From Candidatus Bathyarchaeota archaeon (GTDB lineage Archaea; Thermoproteota; Bathyarchaeia; Bathyarchaeales; Bathycorpusculaceae), in NCBI GenBank assembly GCA_003601875.1, contig PIYF01000026.1, positions 1-13,335 on the forward strand: a stretch of 13,335 bases of DNA, given 5' to 3'. Under the pieces are notes generated by a model. It ran no database searches. It worked only from the letters and a program-made list of their open reading frames with translations, and was not told where the DNA came from. Within the stretch, counting starts at the first letter, position 1, and each line of letters starts with the position of its first letter. This document shows positions 200 through 13,157 of the stretch, piece after piece. The translations under genes were made by a program, and so were the position numbers.

Positions 200-760
200 A
201 TGGCGAAGCTTTTAGAGGTTAGATGGCATGGCAGAGGAGGACAAGGAGCGTGGACTGCAAGTGCACTCTTAGCGCGAGCAGCAATCTATGAAGGGAAACA
301 TATTCAATCCTTCCCTGAGTTTGGTCCTGAAAGAATGGGTGCACCTGTCGCTGCCTTTACAAGGATAAGTGATGAACCAATTAAGATTCATTGTGCGGTT
401 TATAATCCAGACATTGTAGCGGTTTTAGACCCAACATTATTAAAAGCTGTTCCAGTGACTGACGGATTAAACAAGGAAGGTTCAATTATAGTGAATTCAG
501 ATAAAAATCCAGTTGAAGTTAGGAAAATGCTTAACACGGATAAGGGTAAAGTTTGGAGTGTTCCAGCAACCAATATAGCAATTAAAATTTTAGGGAGACC
601 AATAACAAACACTGCCATGCTTGGCGCAGTTGCCCGAGTGACCGGAATAGTTAAACTTGAAAGCGTTGAAAAAGTTGTAAGAGAACGTTTCCGTTCAGAA
701 ATAGCTGAAAAAAACATTGCAGTTGTGAAAGAAGCATATAAGGAGGTTAAATCTGAATGA
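200..760 (+). CDS. porC: Pyruvate:ferredoxin oxidoreductase, gamma subunit
   Basis: This is the gamma subunit of the cytoplasmic 2-oxoacid:ferredoxin oxidoreductase, which makes acetyl-CoA, CO2 and reduced ferredoxin from pyruvate and CoA. The 186-residue length is normal for the family. The N-terminal WHGRGGQGAW (residues 9-18) and SFPEFGPERMGAPV (37-50) are family signatures. This domain is associated with CoA binding in single-chain homologues. The ATG at 200 follows GGGAG by nine bases. The stop overlaps the porD start (ATGA at 757-760), so the two are probably translationally coupled. Gene order gamma-delta-alpha-beta is standard for archaea. Pyruvate as substrate rests on the partner subunits; a related 2-oxoacid enzyme is the alternative. 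Confidence 0.95.
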   Translation: MAKLLEVRWHGRGGQGAWTASALLARAAIYEGKHIQSFPEFGPERMGAPVAAFTRISDEPIKIHCAVYNPDIVAVLDPTLLKAVPVTDGLNKEGSIIVNSDKNPVEVRKMLNTDKGKVWSVPATNIAIKILGRPITNTAMLGAVARVTGIVKLESVEKVVRERFRSEIAEKNIAVVKEAYKEVKSE

Positions 761-1032
761 AAACCGAGAAAAAAGGCTGGAAAGAAATTCCAATAGCAGG
801 TGTATGCTGGAAACCAAGCACTGAATATTTAACTGGAGACTGGAAAACCTACAAGCCTGTTAGAGACCCTGAAAAATGCAAACTGTGTCTTTTATGTGTA
901 ATATTTTGTCCAGATGGAGCTATTCATTGGAAGCCTGAGGAAAACGACCTTGAATTTGACTATAACTTCTGTAAGGGATGTGGAATTTGTGCAAATGAAT
1001 GTCCATTTAAGGCTATTGAAATGAAACTTTAA
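757..1032 (+). CDS. porD: Pyruvate:ferredoxin oxidoreductase, delta subunit (2x[4Fe-4S])
   Basis: This 91-residue ferredoxin-like subunit carries electrons from the catalytic beta subunit to external ferredoxin. Two complete CxxCxxCxxxC motifs are visible: Cys 41, 44, 47, 51 and Cys 72, 75, 78, 82. Each is followed by proline, as in bacterial-type 2[4Fe-4S] ferredoxins. The roughly 40-residue N-terminal extension with aromatic residues (CWKPSTEYLTGDW) is typical of PorD rather than of free ferredoxin. The ATG at 757 overlaps the porC stop and is preceded by a strong AGGAGGT at 741-747. The gap to porA is only 14 bases if porA starts at 1047. Confidence 0.95.
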   Translation: MKTEKKGWKEIPIAGVCWKPSTEYLTGDWKTYKPVRDPEKCKLCLLCVIFCPDGAIHWKPEENDLEFDYNFCKGCGICANECPFKAIEMKL

Positions 1033-1046
1033 GGGAAGTGTGTGAA

Positions 1047-2276
1047 ATGGAGAGTGTTAAACAGAAAGTTTTGGCGTTAAATGGAGATGAAGCTGTTGCT
1101 TACGCTGTGAAGCAATCTGACGTTGACGTTGTAGCCGCTTACCCGATAACTCCTCAAACAATAATTGTTGAAAGATTCAGTGAATATGTGGCAAACGGGG
1201 AAGTTGACACTGAATTTATCTGCGTGGAATCTGAACACAGCGCCCTATCCGCTTGTCTCACAGCATCAGCTGTTGGTGCAAGGGCTTTCACTGCAACAGC
1301 CTCCGCTGGCTTAGCTTTAATGCATGAAATTCTATATGTAACTTCTGGCTGTCGCGCACCGGTTGTTATGGCTGTTGTAAATAGGGCTTTATCAGCGCCT
1401 ATAAACATTCATTGTGACCATTCAGACAGTATGGTTGAACGTGACTGCGGTTGGATACAAATTTATGCTGAAAACTCTCAAGAAGCATATGATTCAATAA
1501 TTCAAGCTTTCCGTATAGCAGAAAACCCGAAAATTATGCTTCCAGTCATGGTTGGTTTAGACGGTTTCACATTGAGCCACACCCTTGAAAATGTTCATGT
1601 GCTTCCAGATGAAACAGTAAGAAAATTTGTTGGAACCCGCCAATTTCCACTAGTAACGACACATACTGGAAAAGAGGCTCCATTAAGACTTGACGTTGAA
1701 AATCCCATGACAATTGGACCTTTAGACCTGCCAGACTACTATTTCGAACACAAACGTCAACAAGAGGAGGCAATGCGTAATGCACCTGAAATAATAAAGA
1801 AAATTCATGATGAGTATGCTGAAATCAGTGGAAGACGTTACGGAAACGGGTTACTTGACCCATACAAGCTTGAAGATGCGGAAATCGCTGTAATCTGTGT
1901 TGGTTCAACTGCGGGAACTGTGAAAACAGTTGTTGACAACCTTAGAAATCAAGGTGTTAAGGCTGGATTGTTAAGAATCCGCACGTTTAGACCCTTACCT
2001 GTCGATGGAATAAGAAAGGCTCTTGAAAAAGTTAAGGCTGTAGCAGTTATGGATAGAAGCATGAGCTTCGGTGGACATGGAGGAGCAATATTCCATGAAG
2101 TACGCCATGTACTTTATGACGCATCAAACCATCCATACATTGTCAACTACATTTATGGGTTAGGTGGAAGAGATACAAGTCCAAATCAAATCAGAAAAAT
2201 TTACAATGACTTACAAAAAATTGTGGAAACTGGACGTGTGGAAACTCCAGTGCAATTTGTCGGTTTAAGAGAATAG
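1047..2276 (+). CDS. porA: Pyruvate:ferredoxin oxidoreductase, alpha subunit
   Basis: The alpha subunit supplies the pyrimidine-binding half of the thiamine diphosphate site and part of the pyruvate pocket. Signatures seen are YPITPQT (residues 32-38), ESEHSA (61-66), the TATASAGLALMHE stretch and RALSAPINIHCDHSD (113-127); the last is characteristic of the pyruvate/2-oxoacid family. Domain II (about 270-390) contains the GLLRIRTFRPLP and MDRSMSFGGHGG segments. I chose ATG 1047 (409 residues) over the in-frame GTG at 1038. The GTG lies inside the GGGAAGTG Shine-Dalgarno region, and the layout from GGGA to ATG then matches that of porC almost base for base. Length is normal for the family. Confidence 0.95.
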   Translation: MESVKQKVLALNGDEAVAYAVKQSDVDVVAAYPITPQTIIVERFSEYVANGEVDTEFICVESEHSALSACLTASAVGARAFTATASAGLALMHEILYVTSGCRAPVVMAVVNRALSAPINIHCDHSDSMVERDCGWIQIYAENSQEAYDSIIQAFRIAENPKIMLPVMVGLDGFTLSHTLENVHVLPDETVRKFVGTRQFPLVTTHTGKEAPLRLDVENPMTIGPLDLPDYYFEHKRQQEEAMRNAPEIIKKIHDEYAEISGRRYGNGLLDPYKLEDAEIAVICVGSTAGTVKTVVDNLRNQGVKAGLLRIRTFRPLPVDGIRKALEKVKAVAVMDRSMSFGGHGGAIFHEVRHVLYDASNHPYIVNYIYGLGGRDTSPNQIRKIYNDLQKIVETGRVETPVQFVGLRE

Positions 2277-2289
2277 GAGGAATATGAAA

Positions 2290-3249
2290 ATGTTTTCAGA
2301 ATGGAAATTCACTATAAGGGAAATAGCTGAAAAACCAGACCTTTTCATGTCTGGACATAGAGCATGTGCAGGCTGCGGACCAGCAACTGTAATAAGGCTT
2401 GTTTTAAAGGCTGTGAGGGGACCAACAATAGTTACTTGTGCCACCGGATGCATGGAAGTTGTTTCAACAATTTACCCGTACACAGCTTGGGCCACACCTT
2501 GGATACATACAGCATTTGAAAATGTAGCTGCAAATGCATCCGGAATAGAAGCAGCGATAAAAGTGTTGAAGAGGAAGGGAAGAATAAAACAGCATATAGA
2601 TGTCATAGCCTTCGCTGGAGATGGAGGAACATACGACATTGGAATTCAAGCTTTATCTGGAGCTGTTGAAAGAGGCCATGATTTCCTCTATGTACTTTAC
2701 GACAATGAAGCTTACATGAACACTGGAATCCAGAGAAGCGGTGGAACACCTCATGGAGCAGCAACAACAACATCACCAGCAGGCACAGTTATCCCTGGGA
2801 AACCTCAATATAAAAAGCCAATTGCAGACATAATGGTTGCCCATGACATACCATATGTTGCAACAGCCTCACCATACTACTGGAAAGACCTAATAACAAA
2901 AGCAAGAAAAGGCCTTGAAGTTGAAGGCCCAGCATTTCTACATGTAATTGCACCTTGTCCAAGGGGATGGCGTTACGATACAAGCAAATCCATAGAAATT
3001 TCACGTTTAGCTGTTGAAACATGCATATTTCCATTATGGGAATCCATAAACGGTGAATATCAACTTTCAGCACCAAGCAAAACTATAGCGTTAAAGCCTG
3101 AAAGAAAGAAACCAGTTGAAGAATACTTAAAAACACAAGGCCGTTTCCGCCACCTATTTACACCGAAATTTAAAGGTGTAATTGAGGAGATTCAGAGAAT
3201 AACTGATAAAAGATGGCAACGTCTATTAAAGAAGTGCGGCATAAACTAA
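2290..3249 (+). CDS. porB: Pyruvate:ferredoxin oxidoreductase, beta subunit
   Basis: The beta subunit binds the diphosphate half of thiamine diphosphate and the proximal [4Fe-4S] cluster. CAGCG (Cys 26 and 29), Cys 54 and a later Cys (223 or 245) are the likely cluster ligands. The thiamine diphosphate/Mg motif is GDGGTYDIG (110-118) followed by DNEAYMNTGIQRSG (138-151), typical of pyruvate-type enzymes. GGAGG at 2276-2280 sits nine bases before ATG 2290 but only three before the in-frame ATG at 2284. I therefore prefer 2290 (319 residues), the same spacing as porC. The Shine-Dalgarno overlaps the last base of the porA stop. This is the last gene of the operon; herA converges on it 22 bases downstream. 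Confidence 0.95.
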   Translation: MFSEWKFTIREIAEKPDLFMSGHRACAGCGPATVIRLVLKAVRGPTIVTCATGCMEVVSTIYPYTAWATPWIHTAFENVAANASGIEAAIKVLKRKGRIKQHIDVIAFAGDGGTYDIGIQALSGAVERGHDFLYVLYDNEAYMNTGIQRSGGTPHGAATTTSPAGTVIPGKPQYKKPIADIMVAHDIPYVATASPYYWKDLITKARKGLEVEGPAFLHVIAPCPRGWRYDTSKSIEISRLAVETCIFPLWESINGEYQLSAPSKTIALKPERKKPVEEYLKTQGRFRHLFTPKFKGVIEEIQRITDKRWQRLLKKCGIN

Positions 3250-3271: not shown

Positions 3272-4675
3272 TTAAACGATTGTTGAATTCTGTTTCAGAA
3301 ACTTTTCTATTTCTTTTTCAGCATTATCAGCCTTTATGAATATTGGCACATTTTCTATTCCAGTTGCAATGTAACTTGATAACAACCATTCTCCAGGTGC
3401 AAACTCTAAAGTTTTTTCCAAAATGCTCTTGTCTATCATGAATGTGTCGCTTATCAATGCCCTATCATAAGGTCTTGGCAATGTTCCAATAAAGTATGTG
3501 TGAAGCTGCTGTAGAGCGTTCGTGTTTAAATAGGCAATTCGCTGAGTTGCCACACAAACGCCTAAACCGTACTTTCTTCCCTGTCTAAGTAATGTTTCAA
3601 CTTGTCTTGAACATTTTGCATCTATTCCTGATGAACTGCTTACACTTGGTATAAACTCTTGGGCTTCGTCGAAAACCATTAAAATGTATGGTTTAACTTG
3701 AAATTTACGTTTCCTCCTTAGAAGCATGTCCTGGGTGAGTTTCATAACCAAATTTTTTATTATAAACGGGTCGGAAATTGAAACACATATTAACCTGTCT
3801 TCATCTTCCAATAACTCCCGGATTCTTTTAGCTGTTAATCCGCCACCCTGCTTCTTCTCTTTTTCCTGCATCTTCTTTATTCTATCAATAATCATTCCCC
3901 TAGTTGTAGCCCAAGAATATAATCCACTTCTCTCCGACACCTTAAACTGTTGAACAGCACTCGTGGCAACCTCGTCTATATATTTAATAAACTCTTCATT
4001 TACCTCTTGATTTTCATCTAAACCTTTATTTTCCAGATAATCAAGTACAGCGTCATGTATTTTATCCACCGCATTCATGTAATGTGGTCTTCCAACAGCC
4101 TCTTTTCTCTGATCTTTCAACTCATTCAAGAATTCTCCGTATGTTGGAACTTTCTGTCTTGGCATAGTATAATAGGCAAGTTTACCCTGTTCCATTATCT
4201 TTTTTAATCCAGTCTTTATTCTCTCATCATTTTCATACTCTCTTGGTTTAACAATGGAGTTGAAGAACTGTTCTAAAGATTCTATTTTACGTTCAAGAAC
4301 AACTTTAGCGGGAACATCAGGGTCAGCTAAAATGTCTAAAAGGAGGAAAACGTATTCACAGCTTATATCGAAAATTATAAACTTTGTATCCTTTGTGTGA
4401 AGCAATATTCTTCTTAAAATGTTTGATACAAGATTGCTTTTACCTCCACCTGTGAAAGCGAAAACTCCGAAATGGTAACGGACAAGCTTTTCAAAATCAA
4501 CATAAATTGGAATTGTTGTCCTGCTTGCTTGAAACATTTTTATTAATCCAATTCGCGGGTCAAGTTTTGCATCTTCAATGGTTTGAGAAGGGTCTATTCC
4601 AAGTTTTTCAGCTATTTTTTGATTATACATACGGTTTATCATTTCGCTGTTTAAAATGTAGGCTGGGCTGCCCAC
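3272..4675 (-). CDS. herA: HerA DNA translocase, ATPase part (separated from its N-terminal domain)
   Basis: This 467-codon frame encodes the RecA-fold ATPase of HerA, the hexameric DNA translocase that works with NurA in end resection. Seen: Walker A FTGGGKS (74-80), the FDISCEY strand (102-108), Walker B ILMVFDEAQEF (331-341, D336/E337), a candidate arginine finger in RQGRK (364-368) and ATQR (376-379). The listed start is a GTG with no good Shine-Dalgarno at normal distance. Homology-like coding continues upstream in the same frame without a start codon (NEFEFIKGFSYPI). This frame is therefore very probably the continuation of the 145-codon frame at 4729-5166, cut off by a small indel. It may be translated separately at low level, only after frame restoration, or not at all. 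Family assignment is firm; functional status is open. Confidence 0.85.
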   Translation of the reverse strand: MGSPAYILNSEMINRMYNQKIAEKLGIDPSQTIEDAKLDPRIGLIKMFQASRTTIPIYVDFEKLVRYHFGVFAFTGGGKSNLVSNILRRILLHTKDTKFIIFDISCEYVFLLLDILADPDVPAKVVLERKIESLEQFFNSIVKPREYENDERIKTGLKKIMEQGKLAYYTMPRQKVPTYGEFLNELKDQRKEAVGRPHYMNAVDKIHDAVLDYLENKGLDENQEVNEEFIKYIDEVATSAVQQFKVSERSGLYSWATTRGMIIDRIKKMQEKEKKQGGGLTAKRIRELLEDEDRLICVSISDPFIIKNLVMKLTQDMLLRRKRKFQVKPYILMVFDEAQEFIPSVSSSSGIDAKCSRQVETLLRQGRKYGLGVCVATQRIAYLNTNALQQLHTYFIGTLPRPYDRALISDTFMIDKSILEKTLEFAPGEWLLSSYIATGIENVPIFIKADNAEKEIEKFLKQNSTIV

Positions 4676-4726
4676 AATAGGATAGGAGAAACCCTTGATA
4701 AATTCGAATTCATTGTTATTCTTTAC

Positions 4727-4739
4727 AATTAAATTAAAT
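4727..4739 (-). repeat. 5-bp tandem repeat (AATTA, 2.6 copies) at the herA frame break
   Basis: The + strand reads AATTAAATTAAAT-type sequence made of AATTA units at 4727-4731 and 4732-4736 plus a partial third at 4737-4739. On the coding strand the upstream frame runs Asp-Leu-Ile-stop here. Deleting one 5-base unit gives Asp-Leu-Ile-Val-Lys and joins the two herA frames without any other change. This is read directly from the sequence. Whether the extra unit is real, variable or an assembly error cannot be decided here. Confidence 0.8.
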
Positions 4740-5166
4740 CGTAATTTATAGGTATAGCATCTATTTGAATCATCATTGTTGATTTGTCATCTGTCTGCCA
4801 GTCAAGTTCAGACTGTTCAATTATTTCAAACTGCATTGGATAATATCCATGGTCGGATAAGCCTTTAAGACCGAAATGTTCAGGCCAAACTCTACTTATC
4901 TCCATAAGAGTATACCTTTTCTCCATTCGCTCAAACTGTTTAAAGTTTTTAACAGCTAGAAGCATCCCTTCCTCTAAAAGTCCCATCAAATCTTTTTGAT
5001 ACTCAACTTTTACTCGGCATTGATATCTTGCTCCTGTACCTCCAAGTTTTGTTTTCTCTTCAGCTCCAAAATATTTCGGTATAACAGCCGCCAGTCTCGC
5101 ATTGAATTTTCCATCAAAATCTGTGAAGCAGAAATTGTTAAGGATGTTCTCTTCTTGCGGCTTCAA
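4729..5166 (-). CDS. herA: HerA N-terminal (HAS-barrel) domain fragment
   Basis: The 145-codon frame is rich in beta-prone segments (RYQCRVKVEY, GMLLAVKNF, KRYTLMEISRVWPEHFG, YYPMQFEII, STMMIQIDAIPINYD). This matches the size and position of the N-terminal HAS-barrel domain of HerA, which contacts NurA and helps hexamer assembly. Its TTG start (5166-5164) has a strong GGGAGAGGAGAG Shine-Dalgarno about eight bases upstream and overlaps the 3' end of nurA by 29 bases, so the genes are translationally coupled. It ends at a TAA created by the 5-bp repeat, without an ATPase domain. A stand-alone barrel protein is possible, but the in-frame continuation after removal of one repeat unit argues for a single 629-residue HerA. 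Confidence 0.75.
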   Translation of the reverse strand: MKPQEENILNNFCFTDFDGKFNARLAAVIPKYFGAEEKTKLGGTGARYQCRVKVEYQKDLMGLLEEGMLLAVKNFKQFERMEKRYTLMEISRVWPEHFGLKGLSDHGYYPMQFEIIEQSELDWQTDDKSTMMIQIDAIPINYDLI

Positions 5167-7051
5167 TTGACGCTCTCCTCTCCCTAAACGTGTTCATATA
5201 AAATATGAATTTTCTCAATTTATGGTTATTGAATATCCATTCAGCTGTTGTGTCTACAATACGTTTAAACTGACTGTAATTCCACTTTGCAACTTTGTCA
5301 GCTATAAATAACGGCTTGTTATGTCCGAAAGCTTCTGGAATACTGGAAGGCGCCATAGCCACTAAAATGTTCATGGTAAGATTTTGAACCTTATTAGGGA
5401 CATCCTTATTCAGAAAAAGAATAACTTCAATTGGCTCTTTGGCTCCTCCAAACTCGTTCCAAAATTCAACAATATTTTCAGGTTTATAATCAAATTCCGG
5501 ATAAACCAAACGATCTACAAGGAGAACGTTGCTTCTTAAGAGAGGATCAGTTTTCGCTTGGCTTAGTTGAACATACGTTTTAAGAAATGTTTTTTCAATG
5601 CTTATTCTGTTTTTTATTGCTCCGGAAACGTAACCTATACGGTTGTCTTTATCTGGAACCATTGTACGGAAGGCTGAATCATATTCTATTAAACTCCATG
5701 GAGGCCTTATTTTGTCAGGATTAAATATACTTACTGATTGAAGGATCATTCGATCAGTGTTTGGAAGCATTTCAAACTCTTCTGGTGAAATCTTCTTCTC
5801 TAATAATCCTTCATTATGCATTATAGGTATTAACTGTCTTTTGAAGTCCCTTGCAGCAGTGTCTTTTGTGATTCCTATTAATAATATTCTTTTTTTCCAG
5901 CATTCTTCAATAAGCATGTTAAGGGTGAAAAGTGTGAGAAACGCTATGTCAAGGGTTGTCAACCATTGTTCTTTACCTTTCTTCACTATTTTCATAAGGT
6001 TGGCTGTTCCAATTTTTTCTGTTTTTTCAAAGAAGAAACGGTTACCTAAAGTTTGAACAAGTTTTTTAATGCGATTCCAAGTAGTTTCATATTTACGGTT
6101 TAAGGTGTAAACTTCATTTTTCTCTTTCACAACTTTATCCTTAACCAAGCTTTTCAAGTAGTTATCAACTCTTCTCACTCTCTTCTCATCTTTTATATCT
6201 AGTTCTTTGAGCAACTGTTTTTTCGTCAAAGCTTTTCTTTCTTTAATCTTTTGAATTATTGCATATCGCAGGTAGTCGCCTCTTGGGGGAAGTAAACCTA
6301 ATGCATTGTTAAAGATGTGATGTCTTGCAATCGTTAAGTCCCATTCATCTATTGTTTCTCCGTCGATTTCATATCCTAAAATGCTGCTTTTAGCTTTCCA
6401 AAACTCCCTCTTTGAAGTATCATAAAGTAAGCTGGCTCTTTCAATGGATAAGCTTCTATCCATGAGGATTATTCTAAAATTTTCTTTCGGGTCTGTTGCT
6501 AATTTGTAGGCTAGGTAGAATTCAGCGAAAGTCATTATCCAATTGGCAATTGTAGCGTTTCCAATTATTGCTTCATCCTTTAATGGCTTACTTAAATTTG
6601 CTTCTTCGGGTTGTTCTTCCTCAAAGAAAGTTTGGTCAACCTCGGGAATTTCATTCACGTAAATTGGAACTACACTTGAAATTCCCGCTCCTCTTTGAAT
6701 AATTTTTTCATCATACTTAACAATTGGATGTTTCCCATTTTCCTTAAAAGTTATTGTTCCAGTTGAAGCGTAAGCTCCGCCGAAAAAAATGACGAGGTCA
6801 AAAAGTGGATGTGAATACATTGTTCCATCTATACCTGCGAAGCGAACACTGCGCGAACCGAAAAACTCTTCAGCTGTTTCAAAAGCCTTTCCAGAATCAA
6901 AATCCATGATTAGAAAATTTGAAAGTAAACGATCATAAAATCCCTTTAAAGATGAAAAACGTTTTTCATAATCTAAAACCTGCATAGAAGCCCCGATTTT
7001 AAGCACATTGCTTGTCCGTTTAAGAGTTTCATTTAAAAATGTTAGACTCAT
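5138..7051 (-). CDS. nurA: NurA-like nuclease, enlarged, with an internal winged-helix segment
   Basis: NurA is the nuclease partner of HerA in archaeal DNA end processing. Family features in order: FAGIDGTMY (D75 from ATG 7051, motif I), E177 in MTFAEFYLAYKLA, ILMDRSLS (D198), ITKDTAARD (K396), and a C-terminal GHNKPLFIADKVAKW corresponding to the conserved end motif. The 637-residue length is well above the 300-450 residues I would expect. The surplus includes a segment at about 255-325 (KALTKKQLLKELDIK, then RRVDNYLKSLVKDKVVKE) that looks like a winged-helix DNA-binding domain. ATG 7051 follows AGGTGA by five bases; the GTG at 7060 lies inside that Shine-Dalgarno and is rejected. It is followed by herA with a 29-base overlap. 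Assignment to NurA is by motifs; exact biochemistry is inferred. Confidence 0.82.
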   Translation of the reverse strand: MSLTFLNETLKRTSNVLKIGASMQVLDYEKRFSSLKGFYDRLLSNFLIMDFDSGKAFETAEEFFGSRSVRFAGIDGTMYSHPLFDLVIFFGGAYASTGTITFKENGKHPIVKYDEKIIQRGAGISSVVPIYVNEIPEVDQTFFEEEQPEEANLSKPLKDEAIIGNATIANWIMTFAEFYLAYKLATDPKENFRIILMDRSLSIERASLLYDTSKREFWKAKSSILGYEIDGETIDEWDLTIARHHIFNNALGLLPPRGDYLRYAIIQKIKERKALTKKQLLKELDIKDEKRVRRVDNYLKSLVKDKVVKEKNEVYTLNRKYETTWNRIKKLVQTLGNRFFFEKTEKIGTANLMKIVKKGKEQWLTTLDIAFLTLFTLNMLIEECWKKRILLIGITKDTAARDFKRQLIPIMHNEGLLEKKISPEEFEMLPNTDRMILQSVSIFNPDKIRPPWSLIEYDSAFRTMVPDKDNRIGYVSGAIKNRISIEKTFLKTYVQLSQAKTDPLLRSNVLLVDRLVYPEFDYKPENIVEFWNEFGGAKEPIEVILFLNKDVPNKVQNLTMNILVAMAPSSIPEAFGHNKPLFIADKVAKWNYSQFKRIVDTTAEWIFNNHKLRKFIFYMNTFRERRASIEAARREHP

Positions 7052-7095
7052 CAGTTTCACCTTGAATTCAGAATTATCACTGAACAGTAAAAATG

Positions 7096-8076: not shown

Positions 8077-8310
8077 TTAAGCTGTTTCTTTTTGTGTTTC
8101 TTCTATGTCTTTGCTTAATTCTATGCCTATTGAACCGCCGAAAAACGAGAAGAAGGTTAACAATCCACTTCCCATAGCACTTAGCACTGTTGTTCCAGCA
8201 AGCGTATTAACAGCTGATGTTAAACCATAAACACTGAAGAAGGCCATTGTTCCAACTGCGAAACCGTTAAACACTGCCCTCGCAATTCTAGCCCAAATTT
8301 TCGCTTTCAT
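8077..8310 (-). CDS. Small protein with two predicted membrane segments (holin-like in shape)
   Basis: I do not recognise this 77-residue protein by sequence. It has a short basic N-terminus (MKAKIWARIARAVF), a hydrophobic segment at about 12-34, a second at about 40-63, and a charged tail (ELSKDIEETQKETA). Two helices with small residues (Gly, Ala, Ser) and a short turn give the layout of class II holins, and the gene sits last in the viral - strand unit after portal. A holin role is inference from shape and neighbourhood only; any small viral or host membrane protein would look similar. The ATG at 8310 has a strong GGAGGG Shine-Dalgarno about seven bases upstream. It lies 124 bases downstream of portal. 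Confidence 0.7.
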   Translation of the reverse strand: MKAKIWARIARAVFNGFAVGTMAFFSVYGLTSAVNTLAGTTVLSAMGSGLLTFFSFFGGSIGIELSKDIEETQKETA

Positions 8311-8349
8311 TTACATCCCTCCATTCAATTTCTTAAGAAGTTCTTACCG

Positions 8350-8418
8350 CCATTTTCGGAGAAACTTGCAGAGAAGAGAAGGGAGAAAGGATAAAACTTC
8401 ATTATTTTCCGAAAATGG
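8350..8418. repeat. 11-bp inverted repeat with an overlapping local hairpin
   Basis: CCATTTTCGGA at 8350-8360 is matched exactly by its reverse complement TCCGAAAATGG at 8408-8418, with a 47-base polypurine spacer (polypyrimidine on the transcribed strand). The right arm overlaps a second perfect hairpin, CCGAAA-ATGG-TTTCGG at 8409-8424, so the two structures exclude each other. Both lie in the 124-base gap between portal and the 77-codon gene. Role unknown: processing site, attenuator-like element or chance. Confidence 0.5.
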
Positions 8419-8434
8419 TTTCGGCAACTCATAC

Positions 8435-9604
8435 TTATTCACTTACTTCTGTTTTTGTTTGAATTTGAATAGGCCATCCCAGTTCAAGCAGTATTTTACG
8501 GGCTTCTTCACGGTTAACAACGCCAAGGTTGTAAGCTTCTAAAACATCTTTAATTTGAAATTCTGGTTTGTTAGGCATGCCCCAATATAGTCGAATGGAA
8601 GCTTGCCCCGGATCATAACCGGCTTTACGTAAAACTTCGCTCCAAACTTTTCGCTCAATTATCCGTTTAAGAAAACGTTGTAAAGCTTGAACTTTTCTTT
8701 CAGCAACTTCAATTGCTGCTTTCGCTGAAGCTTCTGTAAAACCTGGAGTGGTGAAAAGCTTCGGTAAGGGTGTTTCCAAAGCTAAGTAAAAAACGTTATA
8801 CAAAGTTTCCAAATAAGCATCAAATCCCCTTGCCCTTTCAGCTAAAATTTGTTTCACACATGCTTTTTCAATGTTAGTTGTGAATCTTGCCCCTGTCCTA
8901 GGTAAAGATTGAATTTTGCCGTGATATTCTCGTAATTTAGCGTCTGTAAGACCGGGGAAAATCCAAAGTTCATTTGGGGCACCAAACTTTTCAAATTGTT
9001 TCATGATGCTGTCCTCAATTTTTCCGATTATTTCAGCATATGAATATCTTATTTCACCGTCTCCAACAAGCATTCTTGTGCAAAGCTTATGTAAGATTCC
9101 GGTTCCAAAACCATCCATTCGAACTGGTTTATAACAGAAATGAATGATTTCATCCCATGGGATAATTTTGCCGCCGTAATGCGATGTAAGTTTTAAACCT
9201 TGAATTTGACTCCAAGGAGTAAACCTCTGTGTTTGAAGTTTTTCCGCTGGTATAAGTCTTTCAACAGCTTGTATTGGGATGATTTGCAGGTTGCTTATGT
9301 CTCCGTCAATCTTATGCCAGAAGGCGTTGCCGAAACCGACAACGTAAATGGTGGTGATTTGAAGCATTTCATCTAAACCAACTTGTTCGTTCCAATCGTC
9401 AATGTATTCTTTTGCAAGTTTACCATCTTTTGATTCAGTGTATTCATCGTTTTGACTTGTATAAAACCCCATTCCAGTTGTTTGCCAAGCAAGAAAGTTT
9501 ATGGCTGAAGCAACAGCTGGATGTCCCTCATAAACTTCCATCATTTTTTCAAAGGTAATTTTCGGAATAACACCTGTTTGCTGTTGAAAGGGTTCAAGAA
9601 ACAT
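8435..9604 (-). CDS. Viral portal protein
   Basis: The portal forms the ring at one capsid vertex through which DNA is packaged. The 389-residue product has the family layout: an N-terminal helix with YEGHPAVASAINFLAWQTTG (25-44), the beta-rich wing (VGFGNAFWHKI, IIPIQAVERLIP, PWDEIIHF), a stem with long helices (ASAKAAIEVAERKVQALQRF), and the C-terminal EFQIKDVLEAYNLGVVNREEARKILLELG-type segment. The listed ATG at 9604 has no Shine-Dalgarno. The frame is open upstream to 9664 and encodes IGFLRSFWEAIRKPPQ, which resembles a normal portal N-terminus that would begin at codon ATC 9652. A non-standard AUC start or a lost ATG is therefore likely (see findings). The gene stands apart from and opposite to the capsid genes, which is unusual. 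Confidence 0.88.
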   Translation of the reverse strand: MFLEPFQQQTGVIPKITFEKMMEVYEGHPAVASAINFLAWQTTGMGFYTSQNDEYTESKDGKLAKEYIDDWNEQVGLDEMLQITTIYVVGFGNAFWHKIDGDISNLQIIPIQAVERLIPAEKLQTQRFTPWSQIQGLKLTSHYGGKIIPWDEIIHFCYKPVRMDGFGTGILHKLCTRMLVGDGEIRYSYAEIIGKIEDSIMKQFEKFGAPNELWIFPGLTDAKLREYHGKIQSLPRTGARFTTNIEKACVKQILAERARGFDAYLETLYNVFYLALETPLPKLFTTPGFTEASAKAAIEVAERKVQALQRFLKRIIERKVWSEVLRKAGYDPGQASIRLYWGMPNKPEFQIKDVLEAYNLGVVNREEARKILLELGWPIQIQTKTEVSE

Positions 9605-9639
9605 TTGAGGAGGTTTCCGAATGGCTTCCCAGAAACTTC

Positions 9640-9819
9640 TTAAAAAACCGATTTTCGTTTCTGCTCATCCTCTTTAAAACTTTCTTTAAAGGCTTTTAAT
9701 CCGAGATGGAGAAGATGGTTTACAAAGGTGCTGCGTTTCTCTCTTCCACGCAACTTCTCTATTTCATCTAAAAGTTTCTTTTCAATAGAAACATTTACAC
9801 AGATTTTCGTCCGGCTCAT
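9640..9819 (-). CDS. Small ribbon-helix-helix DNA-binding protein
   Basis: A 59-codon frame starts MSRTKICVNVSIEKKLLDEI and continues with a second helix around STFVNHLLHLGLKAF, ending in a charged tail (KESFKEDEQKRKSVF). The strand (KICVNVSI), helix A (EKKLLDEIEKLRG) and helix B after RSTF match the RHH/CopG fold, which dimerises and inserts a two-stranded sheet into the DNA major groove. The ATG at 9819-9817 has GGAG six to seven bases upstream. It is the first gene of the - strand viral unit, just upstream of portal and overlapping the putative longer portal start. Autoregulation at the adjacent palindrome (9844-9853) is a reasonable inference. Confidence 0.8.
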   Translation of the reverse strand: MSRTKICVNVSIEKKLLDEIEKLRGREKRSTFVNHLLHLGLKAFKESFKEDEQKRKSVF

Positions 9820-9843
9820 AGCGGCTCCTATAAGCGATTTACC

Positions 9844-9853
9844 ATGTTAACAT
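9844..9853. promoter_or_regulatory. Palindrome ATGTTAACAT, candidate RHH operator
   Basis: A perfect 10-bp palindrome in the divergent promoter region overlaps the edge of the TATA box that would serve the - strand RHH-portal unit. Short palindromes of this kind are typical RHH sites. A second imperfect inverted repeat, TTGTCAAATTTTACAA (9875-9890, 7 of 8 pairs), lies 21 bases away toward the + strand promoter. Binding is inferred. Confidence 0.4.
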
Positions 9854-9860
9854 TTATAAA
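9852..9860 (-). promoter_or_regulatory. Candidate TATA box for the RHH-portal unit
   Basis: TTTATAAAT on the - strand is about 35 bases upstream of the ATG at 9819. This gives a short leader that still contains the GGAG at 9825-9828. It is a good TATA match in the right place for a divergent promoter. Confidence 0.5.
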
Positions 9861-9901
9861 GATTGTTAAAAAAGTTGTCAAATTTTACAAAGTAAACAAA
9901 G

Positions 9902-9911
9902 TTTATATATT
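9902..9911 (+). promoter_or_regulatory. TATA box of the three-module RHH gene; probably leaderless transcript
   Basis: TTTATATATT, preceded by AACAAAG as a possible BRE, is centred about 33 bases before the ATG at 9940. No Shine-Dalgarno lies before that ATG (TTGAAATAAA). A start of transcription within a few bases of the ATG is therefore expected. The box before the next gene (10425-10435) has the same AACAAA-TATA layout and distance. Confidence 0.6.
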
Positions 9912-9939
9912 AAATAGATTCACTATAAATTGAAATAAA

Positions 9940-10374
9940 ATGAGCGAAAAACCTAAACCGAAATTTGTTAGACTATCTGAAGACGTCTACAAAGAACTTG
10001 TGGCATATGCTGGAGAGTTACAAGCTGAAACAAAGGAATTGCAATCTATTTCTGATGCAATTTCAACCTTAGCGAAGTCAGCTGTTGCTGTTCCACCTGA
10101 ACTGATGGAAGAAATAGAAAAGATTATGGAGAAAAGGAAAGATTTAGGTTATACCACTCGTTTCGAATTTGTCCGTGACGCCATCCGCAAACATATTCTC
10201 CGTCTAACCGGTGAATATGAATCAATTGATATTCCAAAAGAAGATTACGAGAGACTTTCTGATGTTTTAAAGGAAATGGATACGCCGTTTCTAAACCCAA
10301 CAGACTTTGTTTACGAACAAATTAAAAATGTTTTGAGGAAATATGAGGAATGGAAAAAACAGAAGAAACGTTAA
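9940..10374 (+). CDS. Protein with three ribbon-helix-helix-like modules
   Basis: The 144-residue protein is made of three units of about 40 residues, each strand-helix-turn-helix. Module 1 (8-47) has FVRLSEDVYKEL, then SISDAISTLAKS. Module 2 (48-90) has VAVPPELMEEIEKIM, then TTRFEFVRDAIRKHI. Module 3 (96-136) has IDIPKEDYERLSDVL, then NPTDFVYEQIKNVLRKY. Module 2 is the clearest CopG-type RHH; 1 and 3 are weaker but keep the same spacing. A highly basic tail (KKQKKR) follows. The likely role is a DNA-binding regulator of viral genes, divergent from the small RHH gene. It could instead be a host-type regulator. No Shine-Dalgarno precedes the start, which fits a leaderless mRNA. Confidence 0.75.
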   Translation: MSEKPKPKFVRLSEDVYKELVAYAGELQAETKELQSISDAISTLAKSAVAVPPELMEEIEKIMEKRKDLGYTTRFEFVRDAIRKHILRLTGEYESIDIPKEDYERLSDVLKEMDTPFLNPTDFVYEQIKNVLRKYEEWKKQKKR

Positions 10375-10410
10375 ATCCGCTTTTTCTGTAAAAACTGCTT
10401 GAAAAACTAA

Positions 10411-10417
10411 TTTTTTT
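10411..10417 (+). terminator. T-run after the three-module RHH gene
   Basis: A run of seven T lies 37 bases after the stop at 10374 and directly before the next TATA box. It may end the regulator transcript and make the capsid genes a separate unit. This is composition and position only. Confidence 0.3.
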
Positions 10418-10424
10418 AACAAAT

Positions 10425-10435
10425 TTTAAATATTT
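10425..10435 (+). promoter_or_regulatory. Candidate TATA box of the capsid gene unit
   Basis: TTTAAATATTT, preceded by AACAAA, is centred about 36 bases before ATG 10466. The gene lacks a clear Shine-Dalgarno (GGTTGTAACCT before ATG), so a short or absent leader is likely. The layout parallels the promoter at 9902-9911. Confidence 0.45.
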
Positions 10436-10465
10436 GCAGTTATTTTTTATTTTTGGTTGTAACCT

Positions 10466-11755
10466 ATGAATCTCCATGAGTTAACGGCTGAAAACAAGCT
10501 TTTCTTTTTCGGAGAATCCCCCCATTTGAAAGAGGCAAACGGCACTTACAAAGTTTACGGATATGCAATTCATCCATTAAAAACTATGCATCCTAATGAA
10601 TGGCCTCAAATTCGAGTTTATCTTGCAGAAGAACTTAAGAAAGCAGCTCCAACCTTAATTGGTAAACCATTTGGCATAGATCATATAACAGATTTACCCT
10701 ACAAAGTTACGTATGCAACGTGGGATGATGATGCTGAAGCTGTGTATTTCGAAGGTGAAGTAGGCCCGGAAATTGCTCAGCTAATTCGAGATGGCAAAGT
10801 TAAAGGCGTAAGCATCGAACTTGACTGGGAAGTTCCCGGCGGAAAACTTGAATATGTTGATGGTGTTGCTCCACGAAACTTTATCTTCACAGGCCTCGAC
10901 CTTATCGTAAACCTTGAACCTGGAGATCCAAATGCTTGGGTTAAACTTGTTGAAGCATCTTGGCAAAATTGGTTCAAGAAAAGTTTTAATTCAAAACTTC
11001 TTAAAAACATGGAAGTGAAGAAAATAAGTTTAGTTGAAGGAGTTGTGCCTTTCGAAGAAACTGCAACGGCTTCTATTGATGTCTCTTGGAATGCTGAAGA
11101 TGCTGAGCAAAGAATTCGCAAGTGGGCTTCTAAAGATGGAAGCGGAAATAAAGAGATGATTGACTGGAATAAGTATCGAAAAGCCTTCGCCTGGTACAAT
11201 CCCGAACAAATAGAAAATTTCAATAGTTACAAACTGCCCCACCATGACATTGTAAACGGTAAATTTAGTGTTGTTTGGCATGGTGTAGTTGCAGCCATGC
11301 AGACACTTTTAGGAGCTAGGGGTGGCGTTCAAATTCCGGCAATTGACCGTAAAGCGGTTTATACACATCTTGCTAAACATTATCGGCAGTTCAATAGGGA
11401 ACCACCAGAATTCCAAGAGGCATTAATTCTAAATTTGGAAAGTAAGCTTAACAAATTTGCAAGTACGCTTGAAAAACTCGCTGAAGCAGTTGAAGCAGAT
11501 AAAAAGTCTAAAAAAGGAGAACTACAGGAAGCAACAAAAACCGATAAGGCTGTAAGGCTTAGAGAAAAAATTGTTGAACTTGAAGAGAAGGCTAAAGGAG
11601 CTGAAAAACGTGCCTTAAGGGCTGAAGCTAAACTTGAAGCTTTCAAAGAGACAGTGCTTAACTTGTTGCCAAGCGAAAGGGTTTATCGTCACTGGGGTTG
11701 GGGACCACAGCAATTCGTTTTTCAGTTAAAGAGAGTTTTGAGGAAAGATAGTTAG
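10466..11755 (+). CDS. Capsid maturation protease fused to a scaffold-like region
   Basis: In tailed viruses this protein assembles with the capsid shell and then cleaves it. The N-terminal part (about 10-160) has the prohead-protease layout, with GKPFGIDHITDLP (H73) and VKGVSIELDWEVPGG (S116) as likely catalytic His and Ser. A middle domain (about 193-315) has SYKLPHHDIVNG, VVAAMQTLLGARGGVQIP and AVYTHLAKHY, a pattern I associate with extra domains of phage prohead proteases. Residues 320-395 are a charged, heptad-like helix (LESKLNKFASTLEKLAEAV, later LREKIVELEEKAKGAEKRAL), as in scaffolds. The last 25 residues are basic and aromatic. It lies 33 bases before the decoration gene. Protease function is inferred from motif and position next to the major capsid gene. 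Confidence 0.75.
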   Translation: MNLHELTAENKLFFFGESPHLKEANGTYKVYGYAIHPLKTMHPNEWPQIRVYLAEELKKAAPTLIGKPFGIDHITDLPYKVTYATWDDDAEAVYFEGEVGPEIAQLIRDGKVKGVSIELDWEVPGGKLEYVDGVAPRNFIFTGLDLIVNLEPGDPNAWVKLVEASWQNWFKKSFNSKLLKNMEVKKISLVEGVVPFEETATASIDVSWNAEDAEQRIRKWASKDGSGNKEMIDWNKYRKAFAWYNPEQIENFNSYKLPHHDIVNGKFSVVWHGVVAAMQTLLGARGGVQIPAIDRKAVYTHLAKHYRQFNREPPEFQEALILNLESKLNKFASTLEKLAEAVEADKKSKKGELQEATKTDKAVRLREKIVELEEKAKGAEKRALRAEAKLEAFKETVLNLLPSERVYRHWGWGPQQFVFQLKRVLRKDS

Positions 11756-11788
11756 TTTTCAAGAAACCGAAAAGGAGAGTGATGTTTT

Positions 11789-12199
11789 ATGGCTGACACA
11801 ACAGGATTTACAAATCTTGTTGCAGGCGACATTGTAAGTTCAATGAGTGAAGCGTTCATCATTTCATTCACCGCTGAAGCTTCAATATCGAAGGGTGATC
11901 CTGTATACTTAACAAGTAACAACAAGGTTTCTCCAGCTACAGCTGAACAATCATGCATTGGAATAGCTCTTCATGACGCTGACCCTGATGACCCTGTCGC
12001 AGTATGCGTTAGTGACGGTATAGTTAAAGTGATTGCTGGAGAAGCAATAAGTGTAGGTAGCAAAGTTAAAGCTGCTGACACTTCTAAACGCGTATTAACT
12101 TGGGTTTCCGGAACCGATTCACCTGACCTCATATTAGGAACAGCTCTAACAGCAGCCGAAGCTGCTGACGATTTAATCTTAATTCTTGTTGGAAGGTGA
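11789..12199 (+). CDS. Capsid decoration/stabilisation protein (DUF2190-like)
   Basis: The 136-residue acidic, beta-rich protein contains ISKGDPVYLTSNNKVSPA (33-50), SCIGIALHDADPDDPVAVCV, DGIVKVIAGEAISVGSKVKA and a final LGTALTAAEAADDLILILVG. This layout is that of small head decoration or capsid-cement proteins of the DUF2190 type. They trimerise on the outside of HK97-fold shells and are encoded just before the major capsid gene, as here. GGAGAG at 11774-11779 precedes ATG 11789 by about nine bases. The stop (12199) is 10 bases before the preferred capsid start. Identity is by pattern and position; no catalytic residues are expected. Confidence 0.75.
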   Translation: MADTTGFTNLVAGDIVSSMSEAFIISFTAEASISKGDPVYLTSNNKVSPATAEQSCIGIALHDADPDDPVAVCVSDGIVKVIAGEAISVGSKVKAADTSKRVLTWVSGTDSPDLILGTALTAAEAADDLILILVGR

Positions 12200-12209
12200 A
12201 GGTGAAAAC

Positions 12210-13157
12210 ATGGAGCTTTATGAAGCCTTAATTCAAAAAACCGAATATAAGGAACATTATGACCGTGTAATTGCAGAGGCTGAGAAAAACCCATTACTTA
12301 AAAAGGTTATTCAAAACGGAATTAAGGAAGGACTTTGGAGCGATGACTCTCAAGCAATTGGAAAAATCCATGATAGTATAGTTCAAGCAGTTTATCCTGC
12401 AGCTATAAGTAGAGAAATAATCACTGTGAGAACGACAAGTCAACCGAAGGAACGTTTCATAAAGAGGTATGCAACTGAAGCTTATGTGGCTGCTGAAGGT
12501 GGTGGAGTAAATGTTATACCAGCTAAAACAAGCTACGTTGATATTACCTGCGACATTATAATAAAGGCTGCAAGTGAATGGACCAGAGAAATGGTTGAAG
12601 ATGCCACATGGAACGTTATGGATTATGAACTTCAAGATTTAGGAAAAGCAGTTGCAGTGCAAGAGACAGAAAAGGTTCTCTCCGTTTATGATGCTATTGA
12701 CGCTTCAAATTTGGCTGGTGGAAGTAAACTTGACGGTGAAGCTGCAAACTTAAGTTGGACTATGTTACTGAAACTTTTCAATGTTATTATAGGAGAAAAC
12801 TATAAGCCAACAGTGTTTGCAATGAATCCTATACATGCAATTCAACTTCTTGATGATGATAAATTCGTTCACAGCGCTTACTTGCCAAGTGAATCAAAAA
12901 TAAGAAACGGAGTCTTAACAGAAATTCAACCTTTAAATGTTAAAGTTGTGGCAAGCACAAAAATTACAGCTGGAACAGTTTATGCAATCGACACAGATGC
13001 TGCAGCAGTTATGCTTATCCGTAGAGACCTAACAAGCGAACCTTACGAAGATCCAAAAGAAGGATTATATGGCATAGTCGCTTCAGAAAGAATAGGAATA
13101 GGGATTATACAACCAAAAGCAGTCGCCTGCATGGTGAACATCGGAACAACACTGTAA
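12210..13157 (+). CDS. Major capsid protein, HK97-fold type
   Basis: This would be the main shell protein of the virion. The 315-residue product has an N-terminal helical part (1-70), possibly the assembly (delta) domain. A likely E-loop follows (VAAEGGGVNVIPAKTSYVDI, 93-112), then the spine helix (SEWTREMVEDATWNVMDYEL). The A-domain includes PTVFAMNPIHAIQLLDDDKF (200-219), LPSESKIRNGVLTEIQPLNV and a C-terminal YGIVASERIGIGIIQP. This order is characteristic of HK97-fold capsid proteins and of encapsulins; the protease, decoration and portal neighbours favour virus. I chose ATG 12210, preceded by GGTGAAGGTG, over the in-frame TTG at 12186, which overlaps the previous gene. I do not see an obvious cleavage site for the protease. 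Confidence 0.85.
   Translation: MELYEALIQKTEYKEHYDRVIAEAEKNPLLKKVIQNGIKEGLWSDDSQAIGKIHDSIVQAVYPAAISREIITVRTTSQPKERFIKRYATEAYVAAEGGGVNVIPAKTSYVDITCDIIIKAASEWTREMVEDATWNVMDYELQDLGKAVAVQETEKVLSVYDAIDASNLAGGSKLDGEAANLSWTMLLKLFNVIIGENYKPTVFAMNPIHAIQLLDDDKFVHSAYLPSESKIRNGVLTEIQPLNVKVVASTKITAGTVYAIDTDAAAVMLIRRDLTSEPYEDPKEGLYGIVASERIGIGIIQPKAVACMVNIGTTL

Follow-up and report, generated by a model that had tools for sequence, protein, structure and literature searches.

The apparent split of a HerA-like ATPase gene in a draft Bathyarchaeia genome is a private frameshift, real or made in assembly

The closest described relatives of the locus reported here are the archaeal HerA–NurA end-resection pair (4d2i, 9x1l, 3taz) and the antiphage HerA systems, SIR2-HerA and DUF4297-HerA. 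In Deinococcus, according to the excerpted text of PMC9960219, the contact of HerA with NurA is mediated by the N-terminal HAS barrel of HerA, and viability of Sulfolobus islandicus needs both the ATPase activity of HerA and the HerA–NurA contact, as given in the part of PMC4351679 drawn on here. The window with the present locus spans contig C37 in full (13,335 bp); the draft genome to which it belongs comprises 66 contigs and 597,499 bases and has a completeness of 66%. On the minus strand of the window, a gene for a NurA-like partner is followed by a piece encoding a barrel-like domain and then by a piece encoding a P-loop ATPase domain (Table 1). Elsewhere in the window, a pyruvate:ferredoxin oxidoreductase operon (gamma, delta, alpha and beta subunits) occupies positions 200–3249 in unbroken frames, and virus-like head genes, namely a portal-like gene on the minus strand and genes for a cement/decoration protein, a major capsid protein and a small holin-like protein, occupy positions 8077–13157 at the contig end, where they perhaps represent an integrated element beside host genes.

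Table 1 Features of the HerA-like/NurA-like locus in the 13,335-bp window
Feature	Position	Strand	Remarks
NurA-like partner gene	5138–7060	minus	640 aa, unbroken frame; upstream of the HerA-like gene, 29-base overlap
5' part of the split HerA-like gene, encoding the N-terminal barrel-like domain	5166–4729	minus	145 codons, TTG start, TAA stop at 4731–4729
Perfect period-5 tract with the frame change	4727–4739	no strand	13 bases, about 2.6 units
Candidate restart GTG	4673–4675	minus	first ATG/GTG/TTG of the open ATPase frame; not conserved as GTG
3' part of the split HerA-like gene, encoding the P-loop ATPase domain (PF01935)	4675–3272	minus	467 codons from the GTG at 4675

The open reading frames and their coordinates place the barrel and ATPase sequences in different frames, as the initial annotation had held, and its description of the sequence proved accurate in every detail that was checked. 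The barrel frame ends in GAT TTA ATT TAA, and the ATPase frame is open from 4786 to 3272, the two overlapping at 4786–4729; between the upstream stop of the ATPase frame (TGA, 4789–4787) and the GTG at 4675 there is indeed no ATG, GTG or TTG. The break falls on AATTA units, as had been described, which form a perfect run of period 5, and the predicted effect of removing one unit, a single HerA of 629 codons, is matched in length by a natural intact protein, P0001. Three period-5 runs of at least 12 bases occur in the 13-kb window, so the tract is not rare in itself; it is telling because it coincides with the frame break. It consists of a perfect duplication with three matching bases past two full copies, and the single-unit sequence at the break holds two ATT triplets five bases apart.

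P0001 is a database protein of 629 amino acids, encoded on another contig of 10,067 bp, in which the HerA-like gene is whole. The barrel piece is identical to its residues 1–145 at 144 of 145 positions, and the ATPase frame at 484 of 490 aligned residues, with five of the six differences falling in the opening ten residues of that alignment, which cover the frame read ahead of the duplication and in which the linker differs. When the two pieces are combined, three differences are left in 629 residues (positions 27, 148 and 439; 626/629, 99.5% identity), two of them away from the junction and the remaining one three codons away from the break. P0001 may originate from another sample or from a coexisting strain; the sister strain is known as protein only, P0001 belongs to a cluster of six member sequences, and a search of viral contigs for DNA of the P0001 contig found none encoding a relative. 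The cluster of the 145-aa barrel protein has two member sequences, from one contig.

Intact orthologs occur across the class. Matches were found in 92 of 256 class genomes, our own included, and 74 of these are full-length, with at least 54% identity, in one frame of 625–650 amino acids; a stop reported in three of the 74 frames (G024, G006 and G088) is taken to be the normal gene end because the frame length is normal. Another ten genomes carry distant relatives (30–34% identity, one of 44% over a part), and six have a gene that is truncated at a contig end or spread over two contigs (G038, G067, G068, G069, G081 and G097, the contig ends being confirmed for G038 and G097 and read from coordinates for the others, in G069 from its two contigs). 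Two genomes have the gene broken inside a contig, at different places: our own (G000) and G017, where the break lies at residues 219–224 on a perfect 7-bp tandem duplication. Both halves of the split gene match one intact homolog in order. Among 45 distinct ortholog linkers, our own left out and identical ones counted once, not one contains a stop, a frame change or a 5-bp duplication; the length is equal in 43, one being a codon shorter and one a codon longer. The single-unit seed seen in our gene is present in five of the 45, GTG stands at the candidate restart site in 16, and within their first 45 bases period-5 runs reach at most 10, with 37 linkers having 7 or 8. In a sample of the phylum, 29 of 398 genomes match the barrel query, and among these our own alone was seen to stop at the linker, the 367-aa frame of G478 standing outside that reading; in G038 and G081 the frame runs out at the contig end. 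Nearly all titled relatives are Bathyarchaeota or Bathyarchaeia. Close relatives sharing the same split, as expected of a genuine two-gene arrangement, were not found in the class, the 74 full-length orthologs being single-frame and the restart codon not conserved.

Of 83 database proteins, our own included, nine leave the P0001 alignment at residues 145–151. Besides our own (P0121), these are P0127, P0146 and P0183, on contigs shorter than 1 kb; P0130, on a 4,064-bp contig and with an alien-looking tail; P0160, for which no contig is given; and P0157 (200,189 bp), P0158 (9,942 bp) and P0184 (seven contigs, the longest of 28,398 bp). When the next conserved segment is read with a +1 shift, it agrees with the tail of P0158 and, in part, with that of P0184. 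Judged from these sequences, frame changes at the HerA-like linker may also occur in distant lineages (the barrel-only proteins P0158 and P0184), and the two proteins are possible exceptions to the finding that none of the 45 ortholog linkers is shifted. If the variable linker between barrel and ATPase were a recurrent site of small frame-changing duplications, at which archaeal populations toggle a HerA–NurA-like DNA-processing module by slippage, P0158 and P0184 would be further cases; we regard this as hardly credible. Among the best 120 of 2306 database proteins, seven ATPase-only proteins (496–517 aa) start at P0001 residues 111–131, and since these starts lie upstream of the break, they are not products of a split like our own.

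Frame breaks elsewhere in this and related drafts bear on how the lesion is to be read. In a homology scan of our own genome, 202 query ORFs from four relatives had a match of at least 45% identity in 452,575 sampled bases, and the frame switched at five places, which are the HerA-like gene, a dihydroorotase gene, two N gaps and one hit judged to be a low-complexity false one. The same scan gave 3 places for 180 queries in G017, 1 for 34 in G008, 0 for 43 in G006 and 1 for 80 in G005; several queries can match one gene, so none of these are gene counts. On our contig C3 (L070), the dihydroorotase is out of frame at about 9591–9633 without a tandem duplication, and a perfect 13-bp duplication lies at 4194–4219, close to where an acyl-CoA-dehydrogenase-like ORF ends. 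The sampled genome has two such 13-bp tandem duplications, against none in simulation; one is in low-complexity sequence read in frame, and the other, about ten codons before the stop of the acyl-CoA-dehydrogenase-like ORF, may have changed the tail of that ORF.

In G017, frame changes coincide with perfect tandem duplications of exactly 7 bp at four places (L062 1472–1481, L147 18109, L197 1300 and L188 2006). The genes concerned are the HerA-like gene, purM, a B12-type radical SAM gene and an AmrS-like gene, the last three names being a reading of the sequence; for the HerA-like gene and purM, the frame change is backed by homology. We infer that this 7-bp set is an assembly fault. Period-7 tracts exceed simulation in G017 (44 vs 27.0, s.d. 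4.3) and G008 (16 vs 8.9, s.d. 2.7) and slightly in G006 (15 vs 10.4, s.d. 2.9), with no excess in G005 (6 vs 8.5) or G000 (43 vs 46.7). Scans for tandem tracts, comparing the matching frame with a wrong-frame control, gave 10 vs 11 and 14 vs 15 in G000, 3 vs 3 and 23 vs 26 in G017 and 12 vs 19 in the pooled controls. A further scan is not sensitive, as the window's own break is missing from its list. As there is no overall enrichment over the wrong-frame control, the case of G017 rests on the individual genes and not on the count. The other translated tracts of G000 (L122, L124, L131, L115, L177, L114 and L119) look, by eye, like ordinary gene ends or non-coding tails. An epidemic of 5-bp assembly faults in our own genome was also considered and is not supported by the tract counts or the tandem-tract scans.

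Of the four meanings that had been offered for the split, a recent pseudogene and an assembly error survive, and neither a slippage switch nor a pair of separate polypeptides is supported. The duplication is known from assembled sequence and may exist only in the assembly, the cells carrying an intact gene to which an extra unit was added during metagenome assembly or consensus calling. This alternative has an appreciable, though lesser, probability. Our draft contains N-filled gaps (7 N runs in the 46 sampled contigs), the two 13-bp tandem duplications and a second gene out of frame, the dihydroorotase; the intact sister protein differs at a residue close to the break; and in G017 perfect 7-bp duplications are found in four frame-changing genes, the housekeeping gene purM among them. 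Many purported pseudogenes are assembly errors, as stated in the excerpt of PMC11017572, and in the portion of PMC3711429 cited here the expectation for singleton frameshifts with BLASTp validation is a sequencing error and not an indel mutation. Against an assembly error, the tract has an extended match, as slippage would favour, with three extra matched bases compared with 1, 0, 2 and 0 in the four 7-bp duplications of G017, and the sampled genome shows no excess of period-5 runs (422 seen, against a mean of 503.1 in 15 simulations). A 5-bp unit is, moreover, unusual for a short-read error. Because the two ATT triplets provide a plausible slippage substrate and three bases are matched beyond two copies, we lean towards a real slippage mutation, which we hold to be somewhat more probable than an even chance.

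A reversible switch by slippage had also been proposed; here it would be phase variation turning a HerA–NurA-like module on and off. A 5-bp change is reversible in principle, an intact sister form exists, and some distant database proteins likewise leave the frame at the linker (P0158, partly P0184), but our tract has only 2.6 units, and the 45 ortholog linkers, in which the longest period-5 run is that of 10 bases, display neither a repeat array nor an out-of-frame length change of the kind by which a phase-variable locus differs between strains. A locus is phase-variable, in the passage of a review relied on here (PMC11868660), only if switching in both directions exceeds a minimum rate. The switch is accordingly given next to no weight, and only a trace more goes to the idea that the split gene still works, either as two polypeptides, the second restarted at the GTG at 4675, or through a –1 shift before the stop that yields the joined protein. 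Such a shift within the overlap of the two frames would lead from the barrel frame to the ATPase frame, and the GTG lies 56 bases past the first base of the stop codon; yet direct reading of the overlap finds no canonical X-XXY-YYZ heptamer, the 74 full-length orthologs have no split at our break site, and these and the 45 linkers are all in one frame, with no conserved frame transition such as programmed frameshifting would leave. The sole candidate restart codon is GTG in so few of the linkers that two separate polypeptides find no backing there, and in a low-confidence model the break falls between strands 131–147 and 152–156, so that the barrel would lose its end.

The split is thus an ordinary private frameshift, real or assembly-made, and nothing points to a switch, to recoding or to an arrangement as two genes. 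On the favoured reading of a real mutation, a private and recent 5-bp tandem duplication threw a normal one-piece HerA-like gene out of frame. Replication would have slipped between the two ATT triplets, which lie within the Asp-Leu-Ile codons where the two domains meet. Translation would stop after 145 codons, leaving the ATPase ring without a covalent link to the barrel, through which NurA is contacted in the known complexes. If the family works like known HerA, such a ring would fail to recruit the partner, and the HerA–NurA-like module would be off. Since both pieces are free of any further stop or shift, the event would be young, in the lineage or population represented by the draft, and the duplication would have no regulatory role.

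In a survey of 60 genomes, our own included, with matches at E ≤ 1e-10, 39 have both the HerA-like gene and its partner, and the other 21 have neither. Of the 38 relatives with a completeness of at least 90% and a contamination of at most 5%, 25 carry the two genes and 13 lack them. Because both genes are absent from so many genomes, near-complete relatives among them, calling the gene an essential-type repair helicase finds no support in this family, and because they are missing together from many relatives, the need for viability seen in S. islandicus does not carry over to it. Four genomes (G006, G016, G022 and G029) have, in addition to the HerA-like gene, a second and more canonical HerA beside a NurA match, G042 does likewise more weakly, and in G058 a canonical-type HerA/NurA pair is present and the window-type HerA-like gene is missing. 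In bin490 (CP070714; L047 3061–3537), only residues 482–639 of the partner match and the HerA-like gene is whole, and a stop codon is found within the partner gene at L035 1645–3537.

The names of the two proteins stand on unequal ground. The name HerA, given in the initial annotation, holds for the ATPase at the level of superfamily and fold: PF01935, the HerA central domain, scores 64.7 bits on the ATPase piece (gathering score 23.2) and matches 28 of 28 aligned family members, the window gene being its single match in the part of our genome searched. HerA chains are matched by the ATPase both by sequence profile and by fold; in Foldseek, HerA structures are the best matches of the HerA-like model (E down to 4.8e-11; mean pLDDT 60.6, a low confidence that makes this weak support). 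The profile for canonical archaeal HerA (NF040819) gives the ATPase piece 52.9 bits, below its curated 970, a harsh cut-off reached by none of 14 control genomes; at 1e-20, it has matches in 8 of 60 genomes, none of them at the ortholog of the window gene. The partner is weakly NurA-like. It has no Pfam match at E ≤ 0.01 and no relative by sequence among solved structures at E ≤ 1, and PF09376 (NurA) has no match in our genome at E ≤ 1; its ortholog in G017 scores 18.0 bits with PF09376, under the cut-off of 21, and a distant partner in G043 passes it with 23.2 bits, neighbours in the frame included. The best fold matches of the partner model are NurA structures (E from 1.1e-4, all TM-scores below 0.4; mean pLDDT 54.9, again low-confidence and weak support), followed by small winged-helix-type DNA-binding domains.

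The lead can be closed: the repair-type ATPase gene that looked split bears a lesion private to a single draft genome. The work also marks out a module of Bathyarchaeia made up of two genes, one HerA-like and one NurA-like, which genomes have or lack together. A further lesson is that draft archaeal assemblies contain genes broken by short, perfect tandem duplications; the sampled part of G017 has four of exactly 7 bp, one of them in purM, and such cases call for a look at the reads before any conclusion on gene loss or switching is drawn.

Like the archaeal HerA–NurA pair, whose structures supply the best fold matches for the two window proteins, the locus places a NurA-like protein next to a HerA-like P-loop ATPase that bears a barrel-like domain at its N terminus; unlike that pair, its ATPase piece stays far under the NCBIfam HerA cut-off, its 640-aa partner matches no Pfam family, and both genes are missing from a third or so of the near-complete relatives. 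Antiphage HerA systems belong to the same ATPase superfamily and are among the best structure matches, and the PADLOC HerA profile matches P0001 at 1.7e-40; the window differs from them in that the neighbour is NurA-like, having no Pfam match at E ≤ 0.01 and, in PADLOC, only a weak one to BrxF (E 0.0067). As regards the lesion itself, the nearest parallel is with the GeneTack singleton frameshift genes, a class of pseudogenes, hypothetical pseudogenes or sequencing errors, which, in the section of PMC3711429 considered, likewise have a site that is not conserved and halves that match intact proteins in order, whereas the lesion described here is a perfect tandem duplication for which a nearly identical intact protein is known.
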